Shown one piece after another: positions 23,086 through 34,350 of a stretch of DNA of 36,094 bases. This stretch comes from a virus: positions 1 through 36,094 of IMG/VR virus record IMGVR_UViG_3300030390_001940; one strand, 5' to 3'. The notes under the pieces are model-generated. The model was not told the origin of the DNA. It saw only the letters and a list, made by a program, of their open reading frames with translations, and made no database searches. The translations under genes were made by a program, and so were the position numbers. Positions within the stretch are counted from its first letter, which is position 1, and each line of letters starts with the position of its first letter.

Positions 23086-26000
23086 ATGCCAATAGAAGAT
23101 TTTTTAGTAGATTTTTATTCTAAAAACACTGATCAAGAAATTGATCAAGTTAAGATTGATAGTATAGTAGATCATTATGGTGGAGACAACGTTTCTATGA
23201 TAAACGATCTATATGAAAAATATGATACTGGAAATATAAATGATGATAAAGTTTTAGAAATACAAGATTATTATTCACTTGATTTGCCTGAGCAAGAGTT
23301 AGTTGCAGAGTTTGTTGAAGAGCCAGTTGCAAAAGAAGAAATTATAGAGAAAAAACCTGTTGTAAAAGAAGTTGAGGAAATAACTGAGGAAGATTGGAAG
23401 TCAACAGAAGAAGATTTTATTAAAAACAATAATGAAAAACTAGCTAGATTATATCCTGAATTTGAGTTTAGTGAATCTACTTTTGATTTTAATGGAATTA
23501 CTGCTAAAAACAAAACAACAGGAGAAGAAGAAAGTTTTGATTTAAACACTAACTATGCTGGATTTAGTGACTTTAATGAATTTAAAGATTTTGTTAGTAA
23601 AAAACCTAAATTAGACCCTACAAAACAAGAGATTTATAATAAAACAAATTTAACTGTTGATTATGATGATTACGGTGATATTTCTTCAAATAACTTATAT
23701 AGCCAAATAGAGATAATAGAAGAATATGGTAAACCTGCTCCATTTTTACCACAAGAACTAGGTGTTACAATTAACGAAAAAACTAGAAATCCAAAAAGCC
23801 CTGATGAAATGCTAACTATAGTTAATAGCATAGAAGGAATTGCTATAGATGCAGCTACAAATCTTAATAAAGTTTTTCCAGGTATAAGAACAGAAAATGA
23901 ATCTTTATCTGCTAGTTTTAATAAACTAAATGGTGAAGAAAAAGATATTCTTACGGATTACGTTTATAATAATGTAAAAGAACAAACAGGTTTAAATCTA
24001 ACTAAAGATAGTTTTTTATCTATATATGATAGTGGTAAAATGCAAAGCCTTATAGATAATAGATCTGAGTCTATAGCTGACGAAAGAATATACTCAGACG
24101 CTGTAAAATATTTAGGTAGAGCTGAAGCAAGTCAAGAATATACAAGTCTTAAAACAAAAGAGTTAAAAAACAATTTAACAGATAAACAATTAAACTTAAA
24201 AGAATTAAATAGTAAAATATCAAAAGTTAATGAACAAGTAGAATTATTAGAATTAAAAAAAGATAGAAGTGAAGATGATAAACAAAGAATAATAAATTTT
24301 AAAAAAGAAAAAGAAAAACTAATTATAAAACAAAAAGACTTAGGTGGTGGAGCTTGGGATGAGTCTGGCAACTGGGTTAACACTTTAAACGTTACTAAAA
24401 AGAAAAAAGAAGAACTTAAGCAAATAGAAGAAAATGCTTATAATATGGCGTCTTCAATGAACATGTTTGCAGATGAAGGTACTGATATTGAAAAACTTTC
24501 AGCTAGAGATTTAAGTAGAAATTTACTAGACAACAGAATATTAGAAACAGAGTTTTTAGACGCTAAAGGTGAAAAAGATTCAATATCTGTTAATTTAAAA
24601 AGTTTAGGTGTTAGAAAACCTTTGGAAGTGCTAAAATTAACTAATTTTTTAAAGGCTAAAGGTTTAGATGTTTATTATAAATTAGATGACTTTGAGTCTG
24701 AAGCTAGAATGTATTACTCTGAATCAAATGAAGAAGTTGGAGAAATATATTTAACTTATAATGATTTATATAATCTTGGTGTTAGAAGCGAGGAAGCTGG
24801 AGGTTATAAAGGAGGATTAGATGATGTTTTAGCTAAAAAAGAAGGTGAAGATATTTTAAATTATAGAATTTGGGAGGAAGAAAAACTAGAAACTGAGGCA
24901 GAAATTAGAGGTTTATATAGACTAGTAGAGCTAGGCGAAAATCCTGCTTTAATTGAAAAACCTACAGATGCTTACAGTAAAGGTAAATATAGAGACGGTA
25001 TACCTTTAAATGGTGTTGCGTCTGATATTTTTGGGTTTGTAGAAACGGGTTTAACTAGAGCTTTACCAGAAGCGGTTTTAATGCAATGGGGTGGTTATAA
25101 TCAAGAAGAGATTGAAACTACAATGGGTCAAAGTCCTAGAAACTTATTGGATCAAATACAACAGACAGTATCTATAGTTAATAACTCTGAAAGCGTTAAA
25201 TCTGGTAAAGCAGAACCTATAAAACTTACAAAAGCTCAAGAAGAAAACTTTGAAATGGGATTATCTGAAATGACATCTACTGCCACTTTTGGATTTGTAC
25301 CTACATTACTTGAGTTTGCAGCTTTTGAATTAGCCACTGGTGGTACTGCTACTGGTGCTGCAATAGCTAGACTTCCTAGATTAGGTAGATTTCTAGCTGG
25401 AGCTTTTAAAGAAGAAGTTAAAATGCAATCAACTACTGCTGACTTTGGTTTAGGTACTGGTGCTTTGTTCTTTGGTTTAGGAAAAGTTTTTGAACCTATA
25501 AAATTCTTTAAAAAACATAGAATTGGGTTAAACACATTAATGGATAAGTATGGTAAAGCTGGGCCAGCTGGAGCATTGTCTATAGAAGGTAGCGAGATTG
25601 TGCATGGTATTGTTGATGATATGTTAGATAATAGTGATTTCAATGCAGCTATAGACGAATTGTACGGAGATACTGATGAAGCCACTAAAAGATTCTTATC
25701 TAATATTATGATGTTTAAGCTTACTGGTGCTCAACATTTTAAAGGTAGAGATTTTAAATCTAACCACGGCTTAGGTAGAGAAATGAATAAGCTTAATAAT
25801 AGATCTAGAGATCTTGCCAAGCAAGGTCAAAGATTATTAGTAGAAAACGGAGTTAGTACAATACCAGACAATAGACTTACTTCAGATGGTAAAAGAATAC
25901 CAACAACTTCTTCAGATAAAAACTTTAAAATACAAGAACAATTAAATAAGTTATCAAAAGAAAACACTCCAGAAGGTAAAAAAGCTTTAGAAATTTTAAA

Positions 26001-29000
26001 TAAATTATCAAAAGTAAGTGAAACAATGAACACCGTTGATCAAATGCTAAGCATAAGAACTCAACATCAATCATTAAATCCTTTTGCTACTGACCCTAAC
26101 ACAGGCGAAAAAATAATAAATAAAGAAACTGGAGAATTTGAATTAAATCCTAGTTTTGAAAAGAACTTTAATAATCAAATAACTAAACCTATTTTTAAAT
26201 CTTTGAGTGAATCTGCTCCTAAAGGTAAAAACGGTGAATCAACTTTTGTTAATCCAGAGGTTTTATTTTTAAAAGCTGAAGATGCTAAAATGCAAATGCA
26301 AGAAGGTAACACTGCTGAATTTTTACCAGAGCAAAATAAAATATTAGTAGACTTAAGTAAGTATACTCCTGGAAAACCTTTGCATGAATTATCACATGTT
26401 ATATTTAATGCTTATTTTAAGAAAAATCCTCAAGCTAAAATAAATTTTACAAACAAAATGCGTGAAATGTTTAAGGGTGTTGATTTTGGCACGTTTAAAG
26501 ATACTGAATTAAGAAGAGCAATACAAGAGAATTACAAGGATAAAAACGTACAAGGAGAGGAATATATAGCTTTTTTAACTGAATTCTTAACAGATCCTAA
26601 AGTTTATTATCAAAACAAATATACGTCTGGTACTTTTGTTAATGGAATTAAGTCTGAGATTAGATTAATTCAAAAACAATACGGACTAGGTGATTTTGCA
26701 CCACCAAAAACAGCTGAGGATTTAGTTAGAACATTAGGAGATTTAGGTAGAGAGTTTCAAAAAGGTTACGTATCTGATGTTACTGCTAGTCAATTTGCAG
26801 CTTTAGGTAAAATAGACTTATCAGAGGTGGAGTATTATCCTGCAAACACTGATGCTGAAGCTAAGAAAGCCGATGTAATAGCTTCTAAAGATTTAACTAA
26901 AGAAGTTGTAGTTTCTAAATCTAATAAAGAAATAGCTGATGCAAACACTAAAATAGAAGAAAAAATAATAAAAGCTGGAGATAATAGAGTTAGAGATATT
27001 AAAAATCAAGAACTATCAAAAGAAATTAAAAAAGAACTATCTGAAAATAACATAGGTAAAGCTACACAATTAGCCAACCAAGCAGCTAAAAGTGCTGGTG
27101 CTATGGCTTTAGAGCCTAATAAAAGAGTTTCAGCAGAAGAATTTAAGTCTGGATATGAAGAGCAGTTAGCTAGATTAATTGAAACTTACAAACCTGTAGT
27201 AGATGGCAAGCGTATACCTTTTGGTGCTTACATGCAAAAGAATTTAAAAAGAAGATATAGTCAAATACTTCAGCAAGCTAAAAAAGGTAAGTTTGAAGGT
27301 CAAGAAAAAAGACTAGGCCAAGATATAGCAGAAGGAGAAAAAGAGTTTGATATTAAATCAGAAGAGGCAACACCAGAAGAAGCTTTAATAGCTTCAGAAG
27401 AAAGCTCTTCCACAGGTAGAGAAGGTATAACTGTTTCTAAAAAACTTGGTAATAAGGCTGATAAAGTTGTAGCTGAAATTAAAAGAAAAATACCAGTTGA
27501 AAAAGAATTACAAGATAAATTTCTTGAAGATAAAAATTACAAAAGCTTAAAAGACTTAGCTGCTAAAGAAACTCAAGAGATGTTTGGTATAAAACCAAAG
27601 TCTGGTAATTTAACTAAGTCAGATGTTAAAAATTCTCAAATATTTATTAATAATAATCCTGATTTGTTTTATGGGTTATTACCAAAACAACATACTACTA
27701 AAAGAGTAAATGTAGGAACTAGTAAAGAGCCTAAGTATGTTACTAGACCAGACAAGGCTACAGGCGTTCAAGATGTATTATTAAACGCTTTCTACAATAA
27801 AGGAACTAGAAAAGACAACTTAACACCTTGGACTAAGAAACCTGCTAGAGATGTAAATACTTCAGAATTTTTAGAATTGTTTGGTATAACAGAAAGAGGT
27901 AATCCTAATCTATATGTTAAAAACTCTAATGTAAGCTCTAGAATAAAAGCTTTAGTAGAACAAACAGGTAGAATAATAACTAACCAGACAGTTAGAGAAA
28001 TGTTACCTGAAGCTAGATTAGTGGGCGAAGGAAGGTCTAAAACAATGGCTTCTAAAAATTCAGTTGTTGAAGAAATAAAAAGAATTGGATTAAAAGATTA
28101 TAGTTTAGAAAAATTAGAAAAAGATTTAAAATTAATTGCATCTAACAAAGGAACAAAAAGACCTAAAGAAGTTGAAGATTTTTTAATAGACTATAAAAGA
28201 GGAGAAATGGTTGAAGCTTCTCAAGAAACTCCTACTTTTAAAAGTGAAAGCAAACTATTTAAAGGAACGAAATTTAAAAACCAAGATATAAAATTTGAAG
28301 ATATATTTGATGGTAAAACAGGTAAAGGTGTTTGGGGTCAAGTTAAAAAAAATGGTAAAAAAATATATGAAGAATATGATTTACCAAGAATTGAAGAACA
28401 GATAGAATTAGCTATACAGTTTGCAGAAGTATTCCCTAAAGCATTTTTAAGAGGAGAAAACTTAATGCAAACTTTTTTCATGGGTACTAGATCTACAGCT
28501 AATAAAGTTAAAAAAATGCTTGAAAGTACTTCTGATACACCCAAATATGTAAAAGGAACTGTTGATCCAAAGACAGGTATAGGTACGGAAATTGGAAGTG
28601 TTGCAAGTCTTAAAAACCAGCGGGATAGATTACAAAAAGCTTTAGGTTCAGGTAAAACAAGTAAGTTTTTTAAAGATTTAGTTGCTGATTACAAACCTGA
28701 GGGTGTCCAAAAAGGAGCGCTTAAAAAAGCAATGGAAAAAGCATCAACAGATGCTGATAGAATAGAAATACTTCAAAAAGCAATAAATAAAGGAGATAAT
28801 AAAATAAAATCTGATTTATATTATGCTATAGAGTCAGCTAAACAAGAGTGGCTTTATTCTTCAAAAGATAAAAATGAATTTATAAAAAGAGCTAAGTTTA
28901 TATATCAAGGAGCTTCTTCTAATAGTAATTTAATATTAGGTTCTTCTAGGCAATTTGTGCCTATAGAAGCTGTTTATTTTAAACCAGGTGAAAAGTTTAG

Positions 29001-31953
29001 TTTTGAAAAACTTAAATTAGAGCATTTAAAATCTTCACTAAAGCAATCTATGGATGCAGCTAGAGCTGTAGTAGAAGGTAGATTTATAGAGCAAGGTAGA
29101 GATATAATGAGTGATTATAAAGGTATTATATCTGAAAAAAAATACTTAGATATTATAGATAAAATTGGTGGTACTACTAATAATTCAGGTTTAGCTAGAA
29201 TGACCGCTGATTTAAATAACTTAAAAAATTATAGAACTGTAGAGAGTGGTTTTAAAGAAACTTTATATGATAAAATAATAAAAGAAACAGCCAAAGAAAT
29301 TAATGAAAAAAGTTATGAATTAGAAAACAGTTTTATAGCTGATCAAGTCGCTAGGTACATAGCTGAACCAACGCCTTCTAATGAAATTATTTTAAAATCT
29401 AAAATAAAAAATAAAGCTAATTTAAGAAAATTAAAATTTCAAAATAAGTCAGTTGTAGAAGAAGCTTCTATGGCTAGTAAAGACTTAAGTCAGAGTGAAA
29501 TGCTCAATGAACTTAATAAAAGAGATAAAGCTTTTAGATTAGGTAATAAACGTAATAAAACTGTTAAAAAAATTGAAGTTGATTTTGATGCTTTAGGTAT
29601 TTCCAAGAATGAAGCTAAAGTACAATGGCTAATTGACAAAGCTTCTGAAGGTTATAATGATTTTAATTTTGCAAATGATGCTAAATCAAATGTAAAAGCA
29701 GTTAGAGATATTTTAGAACAATTAGATGTTAAATCTCAAGTACAAAAAACTTATGCATCTAAAGATTTATCTGGGGATTTTAATAAAATAATAGAAGAAT
29801 CAACAGGTATAGACAAGTTTAAAGTTTATTCAGATATAAAAGCTCAAGTAAGAGGTGCTAGTGCTAAAAGACAAAAATTCTTTATACCACCTTCAGCAGA
29901 AGACATGCTTGGTTTGTTGTATACTACATTAGGTAAAGGCAAAAAAGGTGAAGCTCAATTAGATTTTTATAAAGAAAACATTTTTGATCCTTATACAAGA
30001 GCTATGGAAAACTTATCTACTGATAGAGTTAATCTTATGTCTGATTTTAAAGCTTTAAAGAAACAACTAGACGTGCCTAAAGATCTTACTAAAACTACAG
30101 AATCAGGTTTTACTAATGAACAAGCAACTAGAGTTTATTTATGGAATAAAATGGGTGAGAAAATACCTGGATTATCTAAAACAGATTTAAAAGAATTAAA
30201 TGATATTATAGAGAAAGATCCTAAACTTAAAGCTTTTGCAGATCAAATATTAACTATAACTAAAGGAGACGGTTATTCAACTCCTAAAGAAGCTTGGGCA
30301 GTTGGAACTATAACTACTGATTTAATAGATATATTAAATACTAAAAAACGTGGTAAGTACTTAGAAACATGGAATCAAAATACTAGTGAGATATTTTCTA
30401 AAGATAATTTAAACAAGCTAGAAGCTGCTTACGGTCCCAAGTATAGAGGAGCTATGGAAAATATGCTTGCGAGAATGAAATCAGGCAGCAATAGACTTAG
30501 CGGTGGTAATAAACTAAGCAACAACGTTTTAGATTATATTAATAATTCTACTGGAGCTATTATGTTTTTTAATACTAGGTCAGCAGTTCTTCAAACTTTA
30601 TCAGCTGCTAACTTTATTAACTGGGGATTTAACAACCCACTTAGAGCAGGTACTGCTTTTGCTAACCAACCACAGTATTGGAAAGACTTTTCTAAATTAA
30701 TGAATTCAGACTATCTAATAGACAGACGTAATGGACTTAAATTAAACATTAATGAATCAGAGATAGCTAATGCTGCAAAAACCTCTAAGAACAAGGCTAA
30801 AGCAGCTTTAAACTACATACTAGAGAAAGGTTATTTACCTACTAAATATGCTGATAGCTTTGCTATAGCTTCTGGAGGAGCAACATTCTATAGAAATAGA
30901 ATAAATGATTTAATTAAAAATGAAGGTTTAACTAGGTCTGAAGCTGAGATAAGAGCTATGAAAGAATTCAGACAAGTTTCTGAAACTTCTCAACAGTCTT
31001 CTGATCCTAGTAAAATATCTTCTCAACAAGCTAGTGACTTAGGTAGAGTTGTTCTTCAATTTGCTAATACTCCTATGCAGTATGCTAGAATACAAAAAAG
31101 AGCTGTACAAGACATAGTTAATGGTAGAGGTGATTTAAAAACTAATATAAGTAAAATAGCTTACTATGCGTTTGCACAGAATTTATTGTTTAATGCTTTA
31201 CAAAACGGTTTATTTGCTTTAGGTTTTGGAGATACTGATATAGATGAAAAAGAAGAAAAATCAATTGTAAGAACAGTTAACGGGATGCTTGACTCTAGTT
31301 TAAGAGGTCTAGGCTTTGCTGGTGTTACTGTTCAAGTTCTTAAAAATTTAGGTATAGATATATATGATAGATCTAAAAGAGATAGACCTGAGTATGGAGA
31401 TGCTTATAAAAAGTTATTAGACTTTTCGCCTGCAATAAAAAGTAAGTTAGGTAAGTTTTCTTCAGCTGGTTATCCTTTTGAAACTAAAAAGAAAAGAGCT
31501 GAGGTTTTTGATAAGGGATTTAGTTTAGATAATCCAGCATATGAATCAATGGCTAAGGTTATTACTGGAACTACAAATCTACCTTTAGATAGATTATATA
31601 GTAAAGTTAATAACTTAAAAGCTGCTTCAGATGAAGAAACAGAAACATGGCAATCAATAGCTATGGTTTTAGGTTGGCCAGAGTGGCAGATAAAAGGTAG
31701 ACAAAACTACGTTGAAGCACCTAAGACAGATGAAGAAAAAATAAAGATTAAAGAAGAGAGATCTAAAACAAGATTAAAGGCAGCTAAAAGTTCTACAGAT
31801 TTTGAAACTTTAAAAAAGCTAAATAAGCAAGAGCAATTAAGGATTTTAAAAAACCTAGGTGTTGGTAATAAAACTTTAAAAAGACTTAAAAAACTAAAAG
31901 AAGCTGATTTAATAGAAGAAATAATAAAAAGAAACAAGAAAAAGGAACAATAA
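23086..31953 (+). CDS. Giant 2955-aa multidomain virion protein with zincin-like motif
   Basis: The longest gene in the window ends the structural array. Order of visible parts: acidic N-terminus (1–110); helical and coiled-coil regions (about 345–455); a Gly/Ala-rich hydrophobic stretch (about 735–805) that could enter membrane; HELSH at 1100–1104 with GEEYIAFLTE at 1157–1166, a gluzincin-like HExxH…E arrangement; a segment with PFGAYMQKNLKRR (about 1378–1390) weakly recalling sigma region 2; long charged helices; a conserved C-terminal block from about 2480 (GAIMFFNTRSAVLQTLS…ANTPMQYAR) with hydrophobic helices; and a Lys-rich SAP-like tail. ASK[D/N] occurs at 1266, 1655, 2130 and 2224. Such giants are packaged and ejected in short-tailed phages. 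No RNA polymerase motif was seen. Protease and membrane roles are inferred. Confidence 0.7.
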   Translation: MPIEDFLVDFYSKNTDQEIDQVKIDSIVDHYGGDNVSMINDLYEKYDTGNINDDKVLEIQDYYSLDLPEQELVAEFVEEPVAKEEIIEKKPVVKEVEEITEEDWKSTEEDFIKNNNEKLARLYPEFEFSESTFDFNGITAKNKTTGEEESFDLNTNYAGFSDFNEFKDFVSKKPKLDPTKQEIYNKTNLTVDYDDYGDISSNNLYSQIEIIEEYGKPAPFLPQELGVTINEKTRNPKSPDEMLTIVNSIEGIAIDAATNLNKVFPGIRTENESLSASFNKLNGEEKDILTDYVYNNVKEQTGLNLTKDSFLSIYDSGKMQSLIDNRSESIADERIYSDAVKYLGRAEASQEYTSLKTKELKNNLTDKQLNLKELNSKISKVNEQVELLELKKDRSEDDKQRIINFKKEKEKLIIKQKDLGGGAWDESGNWVNTLNVTKKKKEELKQIEENAYNMASSMNMFADEGTDIEKLSARDLSRNLLDNRILETEFLDAKGEKDSISVNLKSLGVRKPLEVLKLTNFLKAKGLDVYYKLDDFESEARMYYSESNEEVGEIYLTYNDLYNLGVRSEEAGGYKGGLDDVLAKKEGEDILNYRIWEEEKLETEAEIRGLYRLVELGENPALIEKPTDAYSKGKYRDGIPLNGVASDIFGFVETGLTRALPEAVLMQWGGYNQEEIETTMGQSPRNLLDQIQQTVSIVNNSESVKSGKAEPIKLTKAQEENFEMGLSEMTSTATFGFVPTLLEFAAFELATGGTATGAAIARLPRLGRFLAGAFKEEVKMQSTTADFGLGTGALFFGLGKVFEPIKFFKKHRIGLNTLMDKYGKAGPAGALSIEGSEIVHGIVDDMLDNSDFNAAIDELYGDTDEATKRFLSNIMMFKLTGAQHFKGRDFKSNHGLGREMNKLNNRSRDLAKQGQRLLVENGVSTIPDNRLTSDGKRIPTTSSDKNFKIQEQLNKLSKENTPEGKKALEILNKLSKVSETMNTVDQMLSIRTQHQSLNPFATDPNTGEKIINKETGEFELNPSFEKNFNNQITKPIFKSLSESAPKGKNGESTFVNPEVLFLKAEDAKMQMQEGNTAEFLPEQNKILVDLSKYTPGKPLHELSHVIFNAYFKKNPQAKINFTNKMREMFKGVDFGTFKDTELRRAIQENYKDKNVQGEEYIAFLTEFLTDPKVYYQNKYTSGTFVNGIKSEIRLIQKQYGLGDFAPPKTAEDLVRTLGDLGREFQKGYVSDVTASQFAALGKIDLSEVEYYPANTDAEAKKADVIASKDLTKEVVVSKSNKEIADANTKIEEKIIKAGDNRVRDIKNQELSKEIKKELSENNIGKATQLANQAAKSAGAMALEPNKRVSAEEFKSGYEEQLARLIETYKPVVDGKRIPFGAYMQKNLKRRYSQILQQAKKGKFEGQEKRLGQDIAEGEKEFDIKSEEATPEEALIASEESSSTGREGITVSKKLGNKADKVVAEIKRKIPVEKELQDKFLEDKNYKSLKDLAAKETQEMFGIKPKSGNLTKSDVKNSQIFINNNPDLFYGLLPKQHTTKRVNVGTSKEPKYVTRPDKATGVQDVLLNAFYNKGTRKDNLTPWTKKPARDVNTSEFLELFGITERGNPNLYVKNSNVSSRIKALVEQTGRIITNQTVREMLPEARLVGEGRSKTMASKNSVVEEIKRIGLKDYSLEKLEKDLKLIASNKGTKRPKEVEDFLIDYKRGEMVEASQETPTFKSESKLFKGTKFKNQDIKFEDIFDGKTGKGVWGQVKKNGKKIYEEYDLPRIEEQIELAIQFAEVFPKAFLRGENLMQTFFMGTRSTANKVKKMLESTSDTPKYVKGTVDPKTGIGTEIGSVASLKNQRDRLQKALGSGKTSKFFKDLVADYKPEGVQKGALKKAMEKASTDADRIEILQKAINKGDNKIKSDLYYAIESAKQEWLYSSKDKNEFIKRAKFIYQGASSNSNLILGSSRQFVPIEAVYFKPGEKFSFEKLKLEHLKSSLKQSMDAARAVVEGRFIEQGRDIMSDYKGIISEKKYLDIIDKIGGTTNNSGLARMTADLNNLKNYRTVESGFKETLYDKIIKETAKEINEKSYELENSFIADQVARYIAEPTPSNEIILKSKIKNKANLRKLKFQNKSVVEEASMASKDLSQSEMLNELNKRDKAFRLGNKRNKTVKKIEVDFDALGISKNEAKVQWLIDKASEGYNDFNFANDAKSNVKAVRDILEQLDVKSQVQKTYASKDLSGDFNKIIEESTGIDKFKVYSDIKAQVRGASAKRQKFFIPPSAEDMLGLLYTTLGKGKKGEAQLDFYKENIFDPYTRAMENLSTDRVNLMSDFKALKKQLDVPKDLTKTTESGFTNEQATRVYLWNKMGEKIPGLSKTDLKELNDIIEKDPKLKAFADQILTITKGDGYSTPKEAWAVGTITTDLIDILNTKKRGKYLETWNQNTSEIFSKDNLNKLEAAYGPKYRGAMENMLARMKSGSNRLSGGNKLSNNVLDYINNSTGAIMFFNTRSAVLQTLSAANFINWGFNNPLRAGTAFANQPQYWKDFSKLMNSDYLIDRRNGLKLNINESEIANAAKTSKNKAKAALNYILEKGYLPTKYADSFAIASGGATFYRNRINDLIKNEGLTRSEAEIRAMKEFRQVSETSQQSSDPSKISSQQASDLGRVVLQFANTPMQYARIQKRAVQDIVNGRGDLKTNISKIAYYAFAQNLLFNALQNGLFALGFGDTDIDEKEEKSIVRTVNGMLDSSLRGLGFAGVTVQVLKNLGIDIYDRSKRDRPEYGDAYKKLLDFSPAIKSKLGKFSSAGYPFETKKKRAEVFDKGFSLDNPAYESMAKVITGTTNLPLDRLYSKVNNLKAASDEETETWQSIAMVLGWPEWQIKGRQNYVEAPKTDEEKIKIKEERSKTRLKAAKSSTDFETLKKLNKQEQLRILKNLGVGNKTLKRLKKLKEADLIEEIIKRNKKKEQ

Positions 31954-31988
31954 AATACTGGGCACCATACCCAAAAGTTCCTGTAACC

Positions 31989-32022
31989 AAAAAAGGGGAG
32001 GTCATTACGACTTCCCCTTTTT
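31989..32022. terminator. Bidirectional intrinsic terminator between convergent operons
   Basis: A 13-bp stem (AAAAGGGGAGGTC/GACTTCCCCTTTT, one G-U pair) with loop ATTAC is flanked by A on the left and T on the right. It therefore reads as a terminator on both strands. It ends the + strand structural array (stop at 31953) and the - strand operon, whose last small reading frame ends at 32027. Confidence 0.9.
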
Positions 32023-32026
32023 ATAT

Positions 32027-32068
32027 TTAACACCATGGGCAAAATCCGCCCGGACAGTTTTCACACAT
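32027..32068 (-). CDS. Candidate 13-residue cysteine microprotein
   Basis: The reading frame encodes MCENCPGGFCPWC: four cysteines as two CxxC pairs (C2/C5 and C10/C13). The second pair, CPWC, resembles glutaredoxin-type active sites (CPYC). The frame fits exactly between the 51-aa gene stop (10 bases upstream) and the bidirectional terminator (4 bases downstream). It is about 48% GC (20 of 42 bases) in very AT-rich surroundings, as Gly/Pro/Cys/Trp codons would demand. The start is preceded by TTTAAATT, as for other genes here. A redox or metal-binding peptide is conceivable, and the operon also encodes a thiol-dependent reductase. The frame is so short that chance cannot be excluded. Confidence 0.4.
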   Translation of the reverse strand: MCENCPGGFCPWC

Positions 32069-32078
32069 AATTTAAATT

Positions 32079-32234
32079 TTAGAATCTATAAGTAATACCA
32101 AAAGCAAATATAAAACCTCCACCAGCTATAGCTAAAGTATTAGGATTTAAATTGATTTTTTGTTTATGTAGTATCATATTGCCAGCTGCAAAGCTAGCTA
32201 TGCTTATACCACCTATTATTGCTAATTTTCTCAT
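32079..32234 (-). CDS. Small two-helix membrane protein (holin-like hairpin)
   Basis: A 51-residue protein starts in a 4-base ATGA overlap with the stop of the 90-aa membrane gene, the classic sign of coupled translation. It has a basic N-terminus (MRKL), a first hydrophobic helix (about 4–22), a polar turn HKQKINLNPN (23–32) and a second hydrophobic, Gly-rich helix (about 33–48), ending TYRF. This hairpin form fits small phage holins or membrane accessory proteins. No endolysin gene is in the window, so lysis is only a possibility. Confidence 0.6.
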   Translation of the reverse strand: MRKLAIIGGISIASFAAGNMILHKQKINLNPNTLAIAGGGFIFAFGITYRF

Positions 32235-32503
32235 TGTTTTATTTTTATTATAAGATAAACATTAGAAAACATTATACTTATTAAAACAATAGCTGCATAT
32301 ATTATAGAGTCACCTAAATAAGGTTTGACTGCTAAAGTAAATGCAGATAAAGTTACCATTTTAATAAATAAACTTCCGTACATAATACCATAGCCGGCTT
32401 TTGAAAACCGACTAGTTAGCATTACTACCATAAATGTTATTACAAGAACCAGTATTGCAGCAACAAATCCATATACAGCTGATACTATCATGTTATCTCG
32501 CAT
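32231..32503 (-). CDS. Small three-helix membrane protein
   Basis: This 90-residue, strongly hydrophobic protein has predicted membrane segments at about 6–30, 38–58 and 66–87, separated by short basic or polar loops (SRFSKAG and KPYLGDS). The start overlaps the ribonucleotide reductase gene by 16 bases, and its stop overlaps the 51-aa membrane gene by 4. It could be a holin, an ion-transport-like accessory or an unknown membrane factor. I recognise no family with confidence. Confidence 0.65.
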   Translation of the reverse strand: MRDNMIVSAVYGFVAAILVLVITFMVVMLTSRFSKAGYGIMYGSLFIKMVTLSAFTLAVKPYLGDSIIYAAIVLISIMFSNVYLIIKIKQ

Positions 32504-34350
32504 GAACTACCAACACAAGCTAATTCTCCAGCTAGATTAGTATCATCATCAACTTCTACAATTTTACTAAGATCAACATCTTTAAGATGAGTCATAGCCA
32601 TATCGTAATTAACTTTACTTATATCTTCAAACGGTGCTTGAGTATAAGTTCCGCCATCGTAAGGTAGTACAGATAAACCGTTATAATGATCTCTGTTTTC
32701 CCACATCCACTTGCCTGCTTGATCCCACTCTTCTTGCTTTAAACTAACCGTAGCTGAAACATTATGAGTGTTAGATCCTTTTCTATGGCCAGGAACAATC
32801 CACTCTTGAGCTACTTTCTTTATTCTTTCAAATAAATCAAACGGTGATTCATCTCTCATTATAGAACCTTCAGGTGCTTTTTGTGGTATACTAATAACAG
32901 CAGTGTCGTGAGGTCTAAAAAACTCATCTTCAACTAACTCAGGATGGTTTTCAATTAAATACTTGTACATAGACTCGTTTTTACCAACTCTAATCCTACG
33001 CGTATAATAATCAGCGTGCCATGCATGAATACCAGATGAAGTTCCTAATGCCAGAGATGTCGTCCCAGCAGGCTTCACGGTCGTGCATCTTGCAGCTGGA
33101 TTAATACCAATTGCTTTAGCTGTCTTTGTATTTTCTCGTTTTACTATATTTGCAGCTTCCTTCATATCCAACTGCAGCACAGCGGCACTCCCTATCCCTG
33201 TCATTGATACACCGATAAGCGCGTCCTTCTCTGTCGTATCTTTCCATATGTCTCTTAAATAATGAAAGTCAGTGTAACCAGCTTGTAGTGTACCTATGAA
33301 ACTAGCTTGCTTAACTCTATCGTTAAAATCTTCTTGTGATTCAAGATCACTAGCATTTACTTCACATAGATTACAAAACTGAAAAGGTCTTAATGCTATT
33401 TCACAACAAGGGTTTGTGCCCCAGTCTTTATCGTTATTAAGGTATATACCAGGTTCACCTGATCCTGATAGCTCAACGCGTTTCCATAGATCCATAAAAA
33501 ACTCTTGAGTTACTTTATGTCTCATAAGAACAGCTGAGTTATTAGCTCTACCTCTTTGTGGATTTTTCTCCCACCAAGTTCCTGACTTACAACTAATCAT
33601 CTCGCTGTCTTCAGCAGAAAACAAACTAATTAAAGCAGCTCTACGTATACCACCAGCTAAAACTGAATCGGCTATATGACACACTATATCGTGAGCTTCA
33701 ACAGTTGTTAAAGCAATACCATCTTCTTTAGCATCGAATATACCTTTAATTTTAAGTATACACTCTTTTAATGGCTGTGGTCCTGGTGCTTTACCGCCTG
33801 ATGTAACTAGCTGAGCGCCTTTAGCTCTAATATCTGAGTAATCAAACTCAACAGTAGAACTTCTTTTTTCACCCATATAAGACTTCATAAGAACTTTAAT
33901 AGCGTCTGCCCAGCCTTCAATACTATCACCAATTAAAAACCTTCTAGTTCTTTTAGAGTAAGGTTGGTTAACTGGTGGCATTTGTTTTACGTGATGATTC
34001 TGTACAGAGTATCCAACGCCTGTTCCTCCAAGAAGTAAGAACATTGTTTCATGGAAACTATCAATGTGATCAATTGGTAAATAAGCACAATTATAAACGC
34101 GATTAGGACTAATCTCAATTGGTTTACCTCCGAATTGTAACGAACGCATGCTTGGTAAAATTTTCTTATCATAAACTAATTTATAGGCTTCTTCAATTTG
34201 TTCTCTTAATTTAGGGTATTTTTTAATATGCATACTTTTATTACGCGTAACTAATTCGTCCCAAGTTTCTCTACGATTTAACTCAGGCACGAACTTAGCA
34301 TACTTCATATACACTGTTATATCACTTAGTATTTTGTTCGATAACTCCAT
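32488..34350 (-). CDS. nrdJ: Adenosylcobalamin-dependent (class II) ribonucleotide reductase, monomeric type
   Basis: This 620-residue enzyme reduces ribonucleotides (the triphosphate form is likely for this subtype) to deoxyribonucleotides for phage DNA synthesis. By comparison with the Lactobacillus monomeric enzyme, C88 (in RVYNCAY) and C326 (FCNLCEVN) are the active-site redox pair. N313-P-C315-C-E317 carries the thiyl-radical Cys C315 with its Asn and Glu partners. C612 and C617 at the extreme C-terminus (CVGSSC) form the shuttle pair. The 11-residue gap between C315 and C326 matches C408/C419 of that enzyme. No ATP-cone is visible, and the protein is shorter than the approximately 740-residue reference. 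No separate small subunit is expected. It overlaps the upstream 75-aa gene by 29 bases. Common in marine phages. Confidence 0.92.
   Translation of the reverse strand: MELSNKILSDITVYMKYAKFVPELNRRETWDELVTRNKSMHIKKYPKLREQIEEAYKLVYDKKILPSMRSLQFGGKPIEISPNRVYNCAYLPIDHIDSFHETMFLLLGGTGVGYSVQNHHVKQMPPVNQPYSKRTRRFLIGDSIEGWADAIKVLMKSYMGEKRSSTVEFDYSDIRAKGAQLVTSGGKAPGPQPLKECILKIKGIFDAKEDGIALTTVEAHDIVCHIADSVLAGGIRRAALISLFSAEDSEMISCKSGTWWEKNPQRGRANNSAVLMRHKVTQEFFMDLWKRVELSGSGEPGIYLNNDKDWGTNPCCEIALRPFQFCNLCEVNASDLESQEDFNDRVKQASFIGTLQAGYTDFHYLRDIWKDTTEKDALIGVSMTGIGSAAVLQLDMKEAANIVKRENTKTAKAIGINPAARCTTVKPAGTTSLALGTSSGIHAWHADYYTRRIRVGKNESMYKYLIENHPELVEDEFFRPHDTAVISIPQKAPEGSIMRDESPFDLFERIKKVAQEWIVPGHRKGSNTHNVSATVSLKQEEWDQAGKWMWENRDHYNGLSVLPYDGGTYTQAPFEDISKVNYDMAMTHLKDVDLSKIVEVDDDTNLAGELACVGSSCEIT

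Follow-up and report, generated by a model that had tools for sequence, protein, structure and literature searches.

Dimeric class II ribonucleotide reductases (RNRs) of the NrdJd and NrdJb kinds end in a Cys-rich zinc finger (CRD) whose six cysteines and Zn are used in turnover; the CRD is missing from monomeric NrdJ and sits on a separate polypeptide in NrdJa+b (PMC5704485, PMC9669993). It is 150-220 aa long, and its six cysteines (Cys-920, 923, 933, 936, 939 and 945 in S. nassauensis; PMC5704485) comprise four for Zn and two for redox. For one monomeric NrdJ from a phage, host thioredoxin sufficed as reductant, with no helper (PMC6459318). Designed metallopeptides of 12-13 residues, among them ambidoxin and nickelback, indicate that such a length can suffice, ambidoxin being artificial, heterochiral and modelled on ferredoxin loops (PMC12329447). 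Small phage genes are numerous (PMC11323111, with reference to Fremin et al. 2022). Because ORFs as short as 30 nt were included in a global catalogue (PMC11364881), the micropeptide sequences described below may sit in such lists unnamed.

The window, by which we mean the whole 36,094-nt stretch analysed (IMG/VR record IMGVR_UViG_3300030390_001940), holds a minus-strand operon, nrdJ-ORF90-ORF51-micro-ORF, which converges with the 3' end of the late operon and in which a 13-codon ORF with two CxxC pairs comes last (Table 1). The peptide resembles the CRD in its CxxC-spaced Cys pairs, in its link to a class II reductase and in being a separate polypeptide, as the CRD can be; it differs in having 12-15 aa across the family and four cysteines where the CRD has six, and in lying beside a monomeric NrdJ with its own tail pair. 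With ambidoxin and nickelback it shares length, and with nickelback also four cysteines as sole ligands, but the micropeptides are natural genes and their metal binding is only predicted. The NrdJ itself matches TIGR02505 with E=1e-77, which is below the curated cut-off. As the earlier note had described, there are four cysteines in 13 residues at a GC content of 48% (20/42), the ATG (32068) follows the end of ORF51 (32079) after 10 bases, the stop ending at 32027 is separated by 4 bases (atat) from the A-tract and stem of the terminator, and the same operon encodes the class II reductase with the C-terminal CVGSSC. A plus-strand reading of 32027-32068 (LTPWAKSARTVFTH) was discarded as meaningless, the coding strand being minus. 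The two small hydrophobic ORFs, of 51 and 90 aa, that separate nrdJ from the micro-ORF (32079-32503) are variably present in relatives.

Table 1. Features of the nrdJ operon end and the convergent junction in the window
Feature	Coordinates	Strand	Description
nrdJ	32488..34350	minus	adenosylcobalamin-dependent class II RNR, RTPR-like monomeric type; C-terminus CVGSSCEIT
ORF90	32231..32503	minus	hydrophobic 90-aa protein; in some relatives only
ORF51	32079..32234	minus	hydrophobic 51-aa protein; usually precedes the micro-ORF
micro-ORF	32027..32068	minus	13 codons + TAA, 42 bases; encodes MCENCPGGFCPWC
intrinsic terminator	31989..32022	minus	AAAAAGGGGAAGTC...GACCTCCCCTTTTTT; A-tract on one side, T-tract on the other
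conserved non-coding element	31960..31988	minus	GGTTACAGGAACTTTTGGGTATGGTGCCC; just past the terminator; anchor independent of the micro-ORF
2955-aa gene	23086..31953	plus	closes the convergent late operon; its 3' end meets the junction of micro-ORF and terminator

A protein search of IMG/VR with NrdJ led to 80 fetched loci, and in 22 of them nrdJ is followed by a micro-ORF that fits MCxxC(x)3-4CxxC, in three types: MC[DE][GN]CPGGFCPWC, MC[GP]LCLGGICEYCxx and MC[EP]YCNGYCGSC. DNA pattern scans of IMG/VR that were independent of nrdJ (MCxxCxGGxCxxC or MCxxCxGxCxxC) brought the family to about 90 distinct DNA contexts (93 counted) and 40 peptide variants of 12-15 aa, which beside MCENCPGGFCPWC include MCGLCLGGICEYCNS and MCPYCNGYCGSC. 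Frame, start, stop and all four cysteines are kept across these contexts. The invariant columns are C2, C5, C9/C10 and C12/C13, which the search patterns set and which flank-anchored sampling (below) confirmed. The first pair is often C-P-[LYI]-C-x-G, a zinc-knuckle pattern, and the second varies with type (CPWC, CEYC, CGSC, CGLC, CQGC or CGGC). Wherever upstream DNA suffices, every short ORF of the GG pattern is found downstream of nrdJ or of genes of its operon, three matches having too little to be placed; the remaining GG-pattern matches were longer unrelated proteins and were rejected. In the nrdJ clade the micro-ORF ends the nrdJ operon in every match with enough upstream DNA, and in several loci (L167, L186, L190, L208) it follows nrdJ directly.

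A scan of GTDB genomes (257 Gb of bacterial DNA) gave 53 matches, 51 of which look like chance occurrences inside other frames, and the two real ones (L219, L255) are nrdJ operons on Flavobacteriaceae MAG contigs. L213 and L214 were rejected as chance matches. There was no match among GenBank phages in a nucleotide search with the 1-kb region, nothing above threshold in Rfam, and no match in the PDB with either profile at E up to 10. No comparable peptide follows nrdJ in cultured phages whose NrdJ is 60-67% identical (Microcystis, Oceanospirillum, Vibrio), and cultured pelagiphages that share the gene downstream of the MCEYCGGGCGGC group lack such a micro-ORF in the stretches fetched. Proteins of 52-62 aa that begin MCxICEGGGCSxCFKTE (L087, L098, L118 and others) have a similar N-terminal CxxCxGGGCxxC; their gene setting is unlike that of the nrdJ phages, and they were not merged with the family. 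Separately, a 15-aa four-Cys ORF, MKHICPICIGCGWCK, is convergent with and lies just past another nrdJ (L054, 6607-6654, minus strand).

Pattern scans fix the cysteines, and their totals are inflated because the Cys and Gly columns are set by the patterns; we therefore anchored instead on the conserved element after the terminator, in a ASCERTAINMENT-free check with the anchor GGTTACAGGAACTTT(T)GGGTATGGTGCCC whose sample comes from among the matches listed. Among these, the strict micro-ORF was present at 50 of the 71 junctions with enough upstream DNA and a variant that still has four cysteines (MICPLCLGGICEYCNS, MCPFCNGYCSC or MCPLCLGVCLCKD) at 3, which makes 53 of 71 in total. The other 18 listed junctions show no trace of a micro-ORF, and broken-Cys remnants numbered zero. 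The earlier note had proposed that frame and Cys spacing be compared among relatives and held that substitutions breaking the cysteines would speak against a gene; conservation is clear (22/80 nrdJ loci; 53/71 listed junctions), and no such substitutions appeared at those junctions. It had likewise suggested comparing synonymous with nonsynonymous change. In the flank-anchored set, minimum-spanning-tree counts were 42 synonymous versus 22 nonsynonymous, against an expected synonymous share of 27% (p ~1.5e-10). With the Cys codons left out, the synonymous excess was significant only in the EYC type alone (p=0.0009), with p=0.08 in the PWC type and no excess in the CxG type, so silent TGT/TGC changes in the codons of the invariant cysteines account for much of the signal. 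Cys codons do alternate between TGT and TGC, and in the EYC type five different codons occur at Leu4. In the EYC and PWC types the ORF is 75-100% identical even where the upstream 60 nt are less than 50% identical.

Such ORFs do arise by chance in high-GC genomes, as the 51 of 53 bacterial matches illustrate. In the window itself, by comparison, one four-Cys CxxC...CxxC ORF of like size occurs where 400 first-order Markov windows gave none. Loop lengths of four-Cys short ORFs in the fetched phage loci cluster at 4 residues (42) and 3 residues (36), and the same pattern with control residues gave at most 8 at any loop length. The recurrent, flank-independent and synonymous-biased conservation in phages refutes a chance origin, to which we assign practically no probability. 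The reading of the micro-ORF as a genuine gene of 12-15 codons is well supported by its conservation, purifying selection on its codons and invariant cysteines. The leaders of the flavophage copies are A-rich, which is usual in Bacteroidota, and MCEYCGGGCGGC and its kin (L175, L182, L194, L200), a separate group, have a strong AGGAGG Shine-Dalgarno at normal distance. Terminase identity is 45% to a Flavobacterium phage and 63% to phage MW202828, from which we infer a Bacteroidota host; translation there is presumed.

We considered whether the conserved object could instead be an RNA or DNA element, either with a hairpin close to the terminator as the real feature and the ORF as a by-product, or with the ORF serving as a Cys-codon leader peptide for attenuation. 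The stretch in the window folds well (z -3.8, though with the terminator included), and each type has short local hairpins. However, the ORFs fold no better than their synonymous recodings (z 0.1 to -1.5), so the hairpin in the window is not evidence for such an element. The dominance of synonymous changes also argues against it, as does the absence of any downstream gene on that strand within the window, the next gene being convergent, and other loci have tRNA genes or a lysin gene in place of this terminator. We regard this alternative as very unlikely.

The junction itself is variable. An A-tract and a T-tract flank the terminator stem, which is therefore probably bidirectional. In relatives the ORF may be followed by any of several terminators or by a tRNA gene, the terminator being swapped or supplanted. 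The element GGTTACAGGAACTTT(T)GGGTATGGTGCCC occurs in at least 118 IMG/VR stretches, including some without the micro-ORF, and belongs to no Rfam family. tRNA-like genes lie between micro-ORF and terminator in L003, L022, L086, L102 and others, which suggests a recombination hot spot. At least 9 changes are required to place the three types on the nrdJ DNA tree, against a mean of 10.8 after shuffling, which is near random placement. Alleles are thus exchanged in a kept slot with the four cysteines retained, and any four-Cys version seems to serve.

Exchange of this kind could also point to the host. A Cys4 knuckle might bind a host protein or withhold zinc, acting in transcription, defence or at the membrane, with allele exchange mirroring host differences. 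Fast exchange in one slot is consistent with this, as are the many small phage proteins that act on hosts (PMC11323111) and the further contexts of the micro-ORF beside lysis and tail-fibre genes. Against it, the peptide has almost no side-chain surface beyond its cysteines and several types look mutually replaceable, as would be expected of a metal site more than of a specific protein surface, and we judge host targeting unlikely.

Copies outside the nrdJ clade occupy a different setting. The 12-residue versions MCPICNGYCGLC, MCELCGGHCGLC and MCPICGGYCGLC are in the late region, where most inspected loci read secreted thioredoxin-fold protein, micro-ORF, M15 peptidase, and the others use other slots. 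The secreted protein (L177:6058-6468 and homologues; PF00085) occurs in class I RNR phages and, by eye, is missing the CxxC active site. In L177, L188, L180 and L205 the micro-ORF shares DNA, in another frame, with the signal-peptide start of one or other of two different secreted proteins, possibly by overprinting; these four are therefore weaker evidence for an independent gene. Most records of this second group beyond short fragments carry NrdA, with NrdB where tested.

The micro-ORF always lies in the nrdJ operon in one clade, and it also occurs in class I RNR records and in one record with no RNR detected. This raises the question of an RNR helper acting in trans, a miniature counterpart of the Cys-rich zinc-finger C-terminus that most class II reductases have, that would pass electrons from host thioredoxin to the C-terminal Cys pair of NrdJ or NrdA, or shield or position that pair. 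The position at the nrdJ operon end and the company of class I NrdA elsewhere are both consistent with a helper, as is the lack of phage thioredoxin or glutaredoxin in 6 of 6 nrdJ/micropeptide records above 59 kb; the CRD, separate chain included, offers a precedent (PMC5704485, PMC9669993). However, one peptide-bearing record of 60.5 kb (L192/G011) gave no match to PF02867, PF00268 or NrdJ, and micropeptide type does not follow NrdJ phylogeny. Compensation by a phage thioredoxin or glutaredoxin was not seen, given that thioredoxin is missing from peptide-free nrdJ phages as well and that redoxin content does not differ between carriers and noncarriers. In addition, the NrdJ here has its own tail pair and one phage monomeric NrdJ can rely on host thioredoxin alone (PMC6459318), and the peptide's four cysteines compare with six differently spaced ones in the CRD. 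We consider the helper improbable on balance. The suggestion in the earlier note that the peptide re-reduces the RNR tail is accordingly not established, all the more as no RNR was found or annotated in the related phage MW202828, whose equivalent convergent junction encodes a four-Cys protein of 33 aa. That protein (MKQIHCKYCYSIIKSNANGDGYCCNNCRRLANK; 416-517, L323) lies beside a tRNA-like sequence and is weakly similar to the TiaS zinc ribbon.

In more distant nrdJ phages, which lack the micro-ORF, a four-Cys DUF5522 gene (PF17653, E=2.5e-15) comes just past nrdJ. DUF5522 is likewise small and Cys-rich and shares C-x3-C-x2-C with the CxG type; it differs in its 33-42 aa here, its YHxxRG and its CC dyad, and the likeness is one of spacing. 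Its core YHxxRG(x)CCxxxCxxC is absent from all 40 peptide variants, and the micropeptide phages lack DUF5522. Among the 80 loci, DUF5522 is present in 25, the micro-ORF in 22 and both in 0, a mutual exclusion that is suggestive only, given that the two are largely in different clades.

What the peptide might do follows from how little of it is conserved: only the cysteines, a glycine or two and a position that is bulky or proline, which makes a metal-thiolate knuckle the simplest model. In the peptide a tight turn containing Gly (xGx or xGGx) would link the two CxxC pairs, and the whole is most likely able to fold only by wrapping four thiolates around one metal ion, with Zn2+ the most likely metal and Fe or an Fe-S cluster possible. 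The shape would recall the two knuckles of a zinc ribbon with the ribbon itself absent. Zinc ribbons and rubredoxins do share the two CxxC knuckles, often C-P-x-C-x-G, but the loop here is 3-4 residues in place of a hairpin-length spacer of about 10 or more, with no beta-hairpin and no other residues. Neither is the pattern CxxCx(3-4)CxxC that of the bacterial ferredoxin loop, CxxCxxCxxxC. The likeness of CPWC to a glutaredoxin site, raised earlier, holds as a resemblance to the dithiol CxxC of glutaredoxin and thioredoxin; CPWC is one of several second pairs, the CxxC dipeptide varies by type, and 12-15 aa compare with about 80-100 aa for a thioredoxin fold.

Reading the locus as a whole, we lean modestly toward a coding micro-ORF whose product forms a metal-thiolate knuckle, carried as an exchangeable cassette that serves phage thiol or metal chemistry. 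The several types could be interchangeable because such a knuckle needs little else. In marine Bacteroidota phages the cassette would lie close to where the early (nucleotide-metabolism) and late operons converge, and in infection would probably contribute to phage thiol or metal chemistry, with ribonucleotide reduction the most obvious client and others possible. More specifically, and more tentatively, the peptide may be a free metal-thiolate or Fe-S cofactor acting in trans, for example as an electron relay or thiol partner for RNR and other thiol enzymes; unrelated-looking versions would then be interchangeable, as only the metal site matters. The redox or metal-binding micropeptide proposed in the earlier note has therefore fared well as to the micropeptide, and its role is compatible with the data because of the four invariant cysteines, the nrdJ operon end, the thioredoxin-fold neighbour in the second group and DUF5522 in the same slot. 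With the peptide or an equivalent present in dozens of related uncultured phages, we take it to be, in all probability, a real miniature protein that had escaped annotation and that binds a metal ion or joins thiol chemistry.

In summary, no description of this four-Cys micropeptide family was found in the literature searched. We class it as a conserved phage micropeptide and a possible natural minimal metallopeptide. Genes this short are below the reach of gene callers and profile libraries, so a recurrent family of 12-15 codons under coding selection shows a class of phage function that is missed. If the peptide holds a metal or relays electrons, it would be a natural minimal metallopeptide; if it acts as a free cofactor, its genes would be among the smallest conserved protein-coding genes and a natural counterpart of designed minimal metallopeptides. 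The finding bears on dNTP synthesis in phages that have their own reductase but no redoxin, and on origin-of-life work, which has so far relied on designed peptides.
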